Assembly: GCF_000328685.1 (NCBI RefSeq)
Contig: NC_019974.1
Coordinates: 611,001 to 675,000, forward strand
DNA length: 64,000 nt
Direction of reading: 5' to 3'
Source of the DNA: Natronococcus occultus SP4
GTDB lineage: Archaea; Halobacteriota; Halobacteria; Halobacteriales; Natrialbaceae
Numbering within the stretch: the stretch's first letter is position 1; every line of letters starts with the position of its first letter. Below, one piece after another: positions 1 through 2,743 of the stretch. The notes below the pieces were generated by a model. That model saw only the letters and a program-made list of their open reading frames with translations, ran no database searches and had not been told where the DNA came from. A program made the translations under genes and the position numbers.

Positions 1-776
1 ATCGGAATCACGTCGGGGCGATCGGAGTCGAACTCCGCGCTCACGATCCCCGTCTCGGTCGTCCCCGACATCGCGACCATCGTCGCCAGCGAGACGACGA
101 TCAGCAGCGCGGCCAGCCCGAGGACGAGCGTCCGCGCGTCGTACACGTCCTCGCGCGAGCGCTCCCGGTTGCGCTCGCGGGTCGCACCGCTCCATCGCTC
201 GAGCGCGAGCGAGACACCGAGGACGACTAGGCCGAACGCGAGCAACAGAGACGACAGCCCCTGCGTGCCGAGTACGGCAGTCGTCCCGAGCGTCGACGCC
301 AGCCACCGCTGGCTCGACTCGAGGCCGTTCTCGACGCCCATTACCGCCGTCCCGAGGTGCGGGATCGTCACTGGCTCGCCGTTCACCTGATGCGCCGTCG
401 CGGCGACCTGGCCGTCGGTGACGACGGGTTCGCCGGAGTCCTGATCGGTAAACGGGTTCGCGTCGCCCTGGGTGACGTAGCCCTGCTCGGTAACCTCGAC
501 GACCCGGTGGGTCGTGAGTCCGCCGCCCTCGATCTCCTGGGCGTCGAAGACGATCACGTCGCCCTCCTCGGCCGGGCCGGCGACGGCAGACGGAACCGCG
601 ACGAAGCCGTCGCCGGTCTCGATCGTCGGCTCCATACTCCCCGTTTCGACGTAGCTGAGCGCGATCGGGATCCCGAGGACGTGTCCCGCGACGATCGCGA
701 GCAACGCGAGCGCGGCGACGCCGATCGCGACGAGCGTGACGACACGCATCGGTCCCCCCTGCTGTCCTGTTCCCAT
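1..776 (-). CDS. Signal peptidase I, archaeal/ER (SipW-like) type, C-terminus off the left edge
   Basis: Membrane-bound type I signal peptidase that would remove signal peptides from exported proteins. An N-terminal membrane segment (about residues 11-31) leads into TGSMEPT with the candidate catalytic Ser47. His90 lies in TTHRV and an Asp lies in QGDANP near residue 105. A His in place of the bacterial catalytic Lys is what defines the archaeal/ER/SipW class. A second hydrophobic segment follows around residue 170 and a third begins just before the edge. About 258 residues are visible and the frame is open at base 1. I chose the ATG at 774-776; an in-frame ATG nine codons later is possible. 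It is divergent from a regulator and an exported protein that could be its substrate. Confidence 0.9.
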   Translation of the reverse strand, partial: MGTGQQGGPMRVVTLVAIGVAALALLAIVAGHVLGIPIALSYVETGSMEPTIETGDGFVAVPSAVAGPAEEGDVIVFDAQEIEGGGLTTHRVVEVTEQGYVTQGDANPFTDQDSGEPVVTDGQVAATAHQVNGEPVTIPHLGTAVMGVENGLESSQRWLASTLGTTAVLGTQGLSSLLLAFGLVVLGVSLALERWSGATRERNRERSREDVYDARTLVLGLAALLIVVSLATMVAMSGTTETGIVSAEFDSDRPDVIP

Positions 777-1034
777 CGTTCCCCTCGTCCGTCCGAACGC
801 CCACAGCCGAGCGATCGGCCGTCCGGAATCGACCACACTCCGTCGGCCCCTTACTATAGGCACGTTAGGGAACGTCTGGCATCGTCTGCAGGTCGACAAG
901 ACGACCCTGAAGCGTCCCGACAGCGTCGCGAGGGTCGTCAAGGCAGCCTTGAACTGTAGTGGCAGTGTCAAACGGACCGACAAGTAGTGCCAGAACGTCG
1001 CTTCTATTCCTTCCACTAGAACTATCGGTGACGT

Positions 1035-1054
1035 GCTTCTATAGGCTTAGAAGC
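1035..1054. promoter_or_regulatory. Operator-like palindrome GCTTCTA-N6-TAGAAGC
   Basis: The arms GCTTCTA (1035-1041) and TAGAAGC (1048-1054) are perfect reverse complements separated by six bases. A third copy of GCTTCTA lies at 1000-1006. The site is upstream of both divergent promoters, so a dimeric regulator could bind it; the regulator is unknown. Confidence 0.45.
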
Positions 1055-1110
1055 GCTTTTGACGGGTATCTGGAAAGAGTAGTATCCGTCGAGTGATAGC
1101 TACACTGTCA

Positions 1111-1120
1111 ATAATAAAAA
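1111..1120 (+). promoter_or_regulatory. TATA-like element for DUF7344 gene
   Basis: ATAATAAAAA stands out in GC-rich surroundings. A start site about 25 bp downstream (near 1140) would give a leader of about 50 nt. A purine-rich GGAGGTGG at 1171-1178 could act as a Shine-Dalgarno sequence. A leadered mRNA would be less usual here, because many haloarchaeal messages are leaderless. Confidence 0.45.
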
Positions 1121-1191
1121 CCATCGGTAGAGACGTGAGATGTACCTCGCGCTCACCGGGGGGTGGCGTCGGAGGTGGAAGGGGGATCAGA

Positions 1192-1761
1192 ATGAGTGTC
1201 AGCAAGCTAGACGAGGAGGAGCTCGAGCCGGAGGAACTGAATCGAGACGAGGTCTTCGAGATGTTGAGCAACCAGCGCCGGCGCTGGGTGTTGCACTACC
1301 TGAAACAACAGAACGAGGACCGTGTCGACCTCCGATCGCTCGTCGACTCGGTGTCGTCCTGGGAGTACGAGACGCCTGCAGACGAACTCCCGTGGAAGAA
1401 ACGCAAGCGCGTGTACACGTCACTGCGCCAGTCACACCTGCCACGGCTCGACGAGTCCGGCGTCATCGAGTACGACCGCAACCGCGGCGAGGTCGCGCTT
1501 ACCAACGAGGCACGGAAGCTGCAGCTGTACCTCGAGTACGTTCCCGAAGACGACATTCCCTGGAGCCACTGCTATCTCGGTCTATCGGGGGTCAGCGCCG
1601 CCATCACGGCGCTGGCGTGGTATCCGGTGTACCCGATCGGGGAGCTCTCGGCCGTCGCGCTCGGCGCGTTGGTCACCGCGATGTTCGGCCTCTCGGCGGT
1701 CGTCCACACCTACCACTCGCGGCGGAACCGGATCGGCCACCAGGGGCCGCCGAAACGATGA
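1192..1761 (+). CDS. DUF7344-type winged-helix protein with C-terminal membrane segments
   Basis: Predicted 189-residue protein. Residues about 20-110 look like the haloarchaeal DUF7344 winged-helix domain: an EMLSNQRRRWVLHYL start, KRKRVYTSLRQSHLPRLDE in the recognition-helix region and a GVIEYDRNRGEV wing. Two hydrophobic segments (about 125-145 and 150-170) would anchor it in the membrane. I start at 1192 because the domain begins soon after and a purine-rich tract precedes it; an in-frame ATG at 1093 would add an unconvincing basic extension. The stop overlaps the next start (ATGA), so the exported protein that follows is translationally coupled. It is probably a regulator, with a target I cannot see. 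Confidence 0.82.
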   Translation: MSVSKLDEEELEPEELNRDEVFEMLSNQRRRWVLHYLKQQNEDRVDLRSLVDSVSSWEYETPADELPWKKRKRVYTSLRQSHLPRLDESGVIEYDRNRGEVALTNEARKLQLYLEYVPEDDIPWSHCYLGLSGVSAAITALAWYPVYPIGELSAVALGALVTAMFGLSAVVHTYHSRRNRIGHQGPPKR

Positions 1762-2261
1762 GCGCGCGAGTCGGAGTCGGGCTGATCGTCGTCGCGATCG
1801 CACTGCTGATCACCGCAAGCGCCGGTGCGAGCGTCGCCTCGGTGGAGCGCCCACTCTCCGTGGAGGTCGTCGATGGTGACGAGGCGGGCGTCGCCGTCGA
1901 GGCCGTCGAGGCTGAACTGCTCGACAACGCCGGATCGGAGACCGCAGCCGAAAGGGCGGACGAGAACGCGACGGATGCGGCGCCACCACTGGGCGAACGA
2001 GAGCTGCTGGTCGTCACGAACCAGCTCGGCGAGGAGATCACAGTAACGGAGATCGAGGTTCCGGACGGAATCGACCAAGAGGACGCGTCGGGCTGGGTCG
2101 GCACCGAGATCGAGACCGGCGAAAACGCCACCCTCGAGGGAACGGTCGACTGCAGCGAGCTCGAGCCGGTGCCGGAGGTGTCCGTCGAACTCTCCGGGAG
2201 CGACGTCACGATCTCTCAGACAGTCGAACTCGCAGTGACGTGTCCGTCCGAATCGGTCTGA
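1758..2261 (+). CDS. Small exported protein with SipW/TasA-type signal region
   Basis: Predicted 167-residue secreted protein. The N-terminus is short and basic, followed by a hydrophobic core (about residues 6-25) ending in SAGASVAS. The segment ERPLSVEVVDGDEAGVAV right after it resembles the start of mature TasA/camelysin and haloarchaeal DUF1102-like proteins, which are processed by SipW-type peptidases. The rest is acidic and looks beta-rich, with one Cys in TVDCSELEP and another in the C-terminal AVTCPSES; these could form a disulphide. It overlaps the upstream regulator by 4 bp and sits beside a SipW-type peptidase gene. The TasA-like assignment rests on pattern and context, not on an alignment. 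Confidence 0.7.
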   Translation: MSARVGVGLIVVAIALLITASAGASVASVERPLSVEVVDGDEAGVAVEAVEAELLDNAGSETAAERADENATDAAPPLGERELLVVTNQLGEEITVTEIEVPDGIDQEDASGWVGTEIETGENATLEGTVDCSELEPVPEVSVELSGSDVTISQTVELAVTCPSESV

Positions 2262-2311: not shown

Positions 2312-2743
2312 ATGACTTGGATCCGCGCGCTCGCGGCTGCCGGACTCTCCGTCCTCCTTCCCGGCGCGGGCCACGTATTTATCCGTGATTGGGTTCGTGG
2401 TCTCGCCTTTGGCGGTATCTTTCTCGCGTCGCTGGCGATCTTCCTCCCGCCGACCGACCAGATCATGGCCGCTGACTCGGTCACCGGAATGATCGGCGTC
2501 GTCACGACCGAAACCGACACGATAAGTCAGTTTGTCGTCTCGTTTATCGTCCTCTTCGCCGCGATCGACGCGACGTTTCGCTCGATGGGGTTCCCGCCGG
2601 GCTCGACCAACGGCGCCGATCAGGATGGCCCGAGCTGTCCCGAGTGTGGGAAACCGCTCGACGAGGACCTCACGTTCTGTCACTGGTGTACGACTCGACT
2701 CGAACCGGCCGAGCCCGAAGAAGAGGAACCGACGAACACGTGA
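2312..2743 (+). CDS. Membrane protein with C-terminal zinc ribbon (DUF7575-like)
   Basis: Predicted 143-residue protein. Two or three hydrophobic segments fill residues 5-95: a first pair around 8-50, in a pattern that recurs in small TM2-like proteins, and a third near 70-90. A C-terminal zinc ribbon follows with CPEC and CHWC. It ends in an acidic tail. This combination is common and uncharacterised in haloarchaea. It follows the exported-protein gene by 50 bp on the same strand. The start is the first ATG in front of the hydrophobic region. Confidence 0.75.
   Translation: MTWIRALAAAGLSVLLPGAGHVFIRDWVRGLAFGGIFLASLAIFLPPTDQIMAADSVTGMIGVVTTETDTISQFVVSFIVLFAAIDATFRSMGFPPGSTNGADQDGPSCPECGKPLDEDLTFCHWCTTRLEPAEPEEEEPTNT

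Follow-up and report, generated by a model that had tools for sequence, protein, structure and literature searches.

Relation to described SipW-associated filaments

In the SipW systems of Bacillus, subunits encoded beside an ER-type signal peptidase make matrix fibres (PMC9674648, PMC10151520). In TasA fibres and in archaeal fibres an N-terminal strand completes the fold of the neighbouring subunit, and donor-strand complementation is also described for the filament known as the Sulfolobus thread (PMC9674648, citing Gaines et al.). From a haloarchaeon, the structure of a “Natrinema sp. J7-2 Tafi pilus” has been deposited (pdb-code: 9P0A), and Taf fimbriae are represented by the NCBIfam models TafA (NF052520), TafC (NF052521), TafE (NF052522) and TafF (NF052523).

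The stretch of DNA analysed here, the window, comprises 64,000 nucleotides (G000:C1:611001-675000) of a 4.31 Mb genome whose nearest relatives belong to Natronococcus (SipW 89% identical). Half of a conserved haloarchaeal gene cluster for a thin pilus of the cell surface, of the kind represented by TasA and the archaeal bundling pili, is located at the left edge of the window, i.e. at window base 1. We consider it highly probable that this is a Taf/Tafi-type pilus cluster, in which SipW-processed TasA-like pilins form a thin pilus by strand insertion, with DUF5305 at the base and DUF7344 as regulator. The parts of the cluster, their order, the homology of the pilin to that of a solved filament and the conservation of the whole are directly established in this work. 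The window module is a member of an already solved pilus kind, composed of already named protein families, and represents a variant without a recognisable TafF.

With the Tafi/Taf systems the module shares TasA-like pilins with a common signal peptide and first-strand motif, SipW, DUF5305, a divergent DUF7344 gene and a pilin-like exported protein encoded directly after DUF7344. It differs in the sub-cut-off equivalog scores of its proteins, in its single pilin gene and in the lack of a TafF-like protein in either copy of the window genome. The Bacillus subtilis TasA-SipW-TapA and B. cereus SipW-CalY systems likewise place a dedicated ER-type peptidase beside small exported beta-rich subunits; however, no TapA-like gene was recognised in the archaeal module, the archaeal SipW has roughly double the length and includes an extracytoplasmic part at its C-terminus, and TasA was not matched. 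The AbpA bundling pili of Pyrobaculum calidifontis (pdb-code: 7UEG) and the Sulfolobus acidocaldarius thread (pdb-code: 7PNB) are the second-best (E 0.0096) and third-best fold matches of the module pilin, although neither matches it in sequence and AbpA originates from another phylum. As regards type IV pili, the signal peptidase of the window cluster is of the S26 type, and visual inspection of the flanks read revealed no prepilin peptidase, assembly ATPase or platform protein gene.

The solved Tafi pilus and the Taf reference cluster

Genome G166 contains an ORF (locus L184) with 100% identity to the 186 residues of 9P0A that were tested. This ORF lies between a divergent DUF7344/exported-protein pair on one side and TafF-like, SipW and DUF5305 genes on the other. 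An earlier, sequence-only reading had proposed that the window module could make a matrix fibre or pilus, and this idea is now strongly backed because the gene of the 9P0A pilin is part of a cluster composed in the same way. The window genome contains a second complete copy (C1:2.316-2.321 Mb) with DUF5305, SipW, a pilin and a divergent DUF7344 gene plus exported protein, and this copy has flanks in common with L184, namely a small membrane protein and an ABCE1-like ATPase starting MADDSIAVVDLDRC. L184 and the second copy are therefore orthologous, and the window's copy is their paralogue. In Natrinema, a 902-aa exported-looking protein (L184:10478-13186), absent from the window's copy, is encoded between the 9P0A pilin gene and DUF7344.

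The reference cluster L176, in which TafA, TafC, TafE and TafF all score over their cut-offs, is arranged in the order TafF, TafE, divergent from TafA, DUF7344, TafC, DUF5305 and SipW. None of the window-module proteins reaches the curated TafA, TafC, TafE or TafF cut-offs, all matches remaining below. The Taf models represent narrow equivalogs; among 99 genomes of the order, just 4 have a TafC match that passes. Sub-cut-off scores thus bear on the named proteins and not on the kind of cluster. A TafF-like, C-terminally anchored protein was found between pilin and SipW in neither copy of the window genome, where the strict TafF model has no match; it is also absent from the nearest relatives (L090-L098) and present in about 50 of 80 loci. 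In the Halorubrum-type clusters L148 (8920-9825), L060 and L061, a protein of ca. 300 aa with multiple membrane segments is encoded between the TafF-like gene and SipW.

Signal peptidase and DUF5305 protein

The N-terminal two-thirds of the SipW/ER-type signal peptidase (S26) are encoded on the minus strand at positions 1-776, and the gene runs past the left edge to G000:C1:610613 (L009:14613), giving a whole protein of about 387 aa that has four membrane segments and ends in an extracytoplasmic part. It scores over the cut-offs of the archaeal signal peptidase model TIGR02228 (60 bits) and of PF10502 (E 7e-5), and under that of the Bacillus SipW model NF046067 (41 bits). Across 11 relatives there is no variation at Ser44, His87 and Asp102/Asp108 (numbered as in alignment A1). 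This Ser/His/Asp catalytic pattern is that of ER and SipW signal peptidases. A third archaeal-type signal peptidase match in the genome (C1:3617), under the model cut-off, may represent the housekeeping enzyme.

The sequence-only reading had also suggested looking for DUF5305/DUF1102 genes beyond the left edge, and the genome left of base 1 indeed contains them. Directly behind SipW on the same (minus) strand follows the gene of a DUF5305 protein with two membrane segments (G000:C1:609344-610555, L009:13344-14555; PF17231, E 1.1e-51), and next to it that of a DUF1102/TasA-like pilin. A DUF5305 gene elsewhere in the genome (C1:3484741-3485853, L084:8742-9854) was considered as a further pilus cluster and rejected, being surrounded by exopolysaccharide/glycosyltransferase genes with no SipW.

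The pilin

The main pilin is encoded off the left edge (G000:C1:608221-608841, L009:12221-12841, minus strand; MERRKFLIGAGSTAIGASALVGTGAFSSVTSTR...) and not by the exported-protein gene inside the window. It carries an R-R signal peptide and the first-strand motif GAFssVxAxR, both shared with Tafi pilins, and matches 9P0A with E 1.3e-10, the pilin family as a whole reaching E 4e-31 in a profile search. The TafE model (50 bits, E 2.5e-13) and PF06510 (DUF1102; E 6e-4) match it under their cut-offs, PF06510 also matching 18 of 31 relative pilins at E<0.01 (best 3.6e-9); the pilin profile A3 gives E 8e-52, though the sequence itself forms row 1 of that profile. None of the 31 module pilins has a Pfam match to Peptidase_M73 (camelysin), and the profile search of the PDB revealed no AbpA sequence match. 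Fold evidence was obtained from the same-position pilin of the relative L092, standing in for that of the window genome: its three best PDB matches are 9P0A, 7UEG and 7PNB, at modest scores (E 0.008-0.022, TM about 0.4, pLDDT 74). TasA is absent both from these fold matches and from the PDB sequence matches of the profile search.

Conservation among the pilins is highest in the signal peptide and in the strand after it, which is the best conserved mature segment. The mature part is otherwise highly variable, with a top-residue frequency of 0.33 in the C-terminal half; within Natronococcus the pilins are 42-52% identical over part of their length, and the number of pilin matches per locus ranges from 1 to 7, the window's copy containing a single pilin gene. 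Such variation of the mature part and of the gene number would be anticipated for a surface coat that varies, and could be taken to mean that the cluster provides a TasA-like matrix protein, present as surface or secreted monomers or as amorphous matrix and not as an ordered pilus. The orthologous Natrinema cluster, however, encodes a pilin that was solved as a filament, and we regard the matrix interpretation as very improbable compared with an ordered Tafi-type pilus.

Out of 64 loci (L009:12221-12841 and L090-L169), 59 show a lower third-position GC content in the pilin genes than in SipW, with medians of 0.65 and 0.87, respectively. This difference is compatible with frequent exchange or with a special mode of expression. 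Beside the pilin gene, a gene-poor segment (L009:11640-12040) with the hairpin-like sequence CCTCGGGGCTTGTCCCCGAGG is possibly a remnant of an IS200/IS605-like transposon.

The DUF7344 gene and the exported 167-residue protein

Divergent from SipW, the plus strand codes for a winged-helix protein of the DUF7344 family that has membrane segments at its C-terminus (1192-1761; PF24035, E 8.5e-29) and, starting inside its stop codon with a 4-base ATGA overlap, for an exported protein of 167 residues (1758-2261). This arrangement had been claimed from the sequence and is confirmed. The intergenic region contains a TATA-like element CCCCTTACTATAGGCACGTTAG on the minus strand (847-868), an invariant block in six Natronococcus-type loci and probably the promoter region of SipW/DUF5305. 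On the side of the DUF7344 gene, a plus-strand TATA-like element TCAATAATAAA (1108-1118) and a second block CTCACCGGGGGGTGGCG (1152-1168) are conserved in six loci, the former probably acting as the promoter of the DUF7344 gene.

The 167-residue protein had been described as resembling TasA, camelysin and DUF1102 proteins. Searches with the single sequence did not bear this out, no Pfam family passing and no PDB entry matching, whereas pilin homology was found at the level of family profiles: the profile of the 167-residue family matches that of the pilins (hhalign 98%, E 5e-14) and 9P0A (E 3.3e-5). On the basis of these profile matches, the protein is classified as a divergent pilin paralogue. 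It takes the position of TafC, which is the gene after DUF7344 in L176 and scores there over the cut-off; the TafC model itself matches the window protein under the cut-off (15.8 bits, E 0.006). Residues 80-157 are confidently predicted to form an Ig-like core, but the comparison with TasA and AbpA suggested by the sequence-only reading revealed an Ig-like sandwich without a specific match to either, Foldseek retrieving generic Ig-like folds and no specific PDB entry. Of its cysteines, 132 and 162, the latter is invariant in alignment A2. The protein is probably not the main fibre subunit.

A search with the single protein found two orthologues in 117 genomes, since the sequence diverges fast; the position after DUF7344 was successful instead. 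Within Natronococcus the 167-residue protein is 60-70% identical, compared with 80-90% for SipW, DUF5305 and DUF7344, and thus the fastest-changing part apart from the pilins. This rapid change relative to its neighbours, the ATGA overlap and the fact that nearly all loci keep the two genes together and divergent from the SipW operon would also suit a signalling unit that is not a structural part of the pilus. In such a unit the exported pilin-like protein would sense the export of pilins or contact with a surface, and the winged-helix membrane protein would relay the signal to the promoter. Such a role is compatible with a pilus-forming cluster; we nevertheless judge it rather unlikely, as the 167-residue protein is homologous to pilins, its counterpart in the reference cluster bears the name of a fimbrial protein (TafC), and DUF7344 is common in the window genome (37 matches, 36 over the cut-off), where the other strong DUF7344 loci read have no pilin-like partner beside them. 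That the overlapping pair acts as a surface sensor, a winged-helix regulator with a pilin-like probe reporting export or contact and switching the pilus genes on or off, is a proposition to which we attach little probability; if true, it would constitute a new kind of archaeal pilus control. We prefer a structural, pilin-related 167-residue protein in a Tafi-type cluster, with the DUF7344 protein as its likely local regulator.

Conservation of the gene order

SipW relatives, mostly full-length, are present in 72 of 117 genomes of the order. A first set comprised 42 loci read, 2 of the window genome itself and 40 of other genomes; here DUF5305 is located next to SipW in 35 and DUF7344 nearby in 34, in divergent orientation in 29. 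A second set of 63 GTDB loci with enough flank, chosen by SipW similarity, has DUF5305 after SipW in 59 and DUF7344 divergently upstream of SipW in 58. Conservation of the gene order across haloarchaea, which had been named as a check, was thereby found. The two sets overlap, were both picked by SipW similarity and include many closely related Halorubrum or Natrinema loci. In nearly all of the 58 divergent loci the exported protein encoded after DUF7344 contains the motif GxFSSxxAxRxxxVxVVxDxxA.

Given the abundance of DUF7344 and of acidic exported proteins in haloarchaea, one might regard the cluster as an extra signal peptidase that by chance neighbours unrelated regulator and exported-protein genes. 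The conserved arrangement excludes this, leaving a vanishingly small probability: DUF7344 is found within 8 kb of SipW in 59 of 63 loci versus about 12% expected from its density in the window genome, corresponding to P about 1e-48 under independence of the loci, an assumption that does not fully hold, and two of only three DUF5305 copies in the genome adjoin SipW.

The gene on the right, encoding a zinc-ribbon membrane protein (2312-2743, plus strand; DUF7575, E 3e-14), had been suggested as an accessory part. Relatives occur in only 27 of 80 loci and their place is not fixed, in Halorubrum being on the far side of the module; the gene is probably a syntenic neighbour and not a core part.

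Proposed mechanism and implications

Consistent with these data we propose the following scenario for the Tafi-type cluster. The pilin would be exported by the Tat route, as suggested by its R-R-K-F start (TAT matches are weak), and SipW would cut the signal peptides of the TasA-like pilins and of the 167-residue paralogue in the TafC position. The mature pilins might then polymerise on the cell surface to a thin pilus, the N-terminal strand of each inserting into the beta-sandwich of its neighbour. DUF5305, possibly together with the extracytoplasmic domain of SipW, may hold or assemble the pilus base, for which DUF5305, a protein that has two membrane segments and stays with SipW, is the best candidate. 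No TafF-like anchor was found in the window genome or in those closest to it, where base and anchor duties would therefore fall to other parts. The protein in the TafC position might be a minor subunit at the tip or base, and the divergent DUF7344 membrane protein would regulate the cluster. The pilus may serve in adhesion or biofilm formation.

The small Tafi/TasA-type pilus cluster is widespread in haloarchaea, often with more than one copy per genome, and combines a fixed core for processing, base and regulation with fast-changing pilins. Its analysis links DUF5305, DUF1102 and, in this context, DUF7344 to pilus making, and offers direct gene targets for testing the role of a SipW-type peptidase in the making of archaeal pili.
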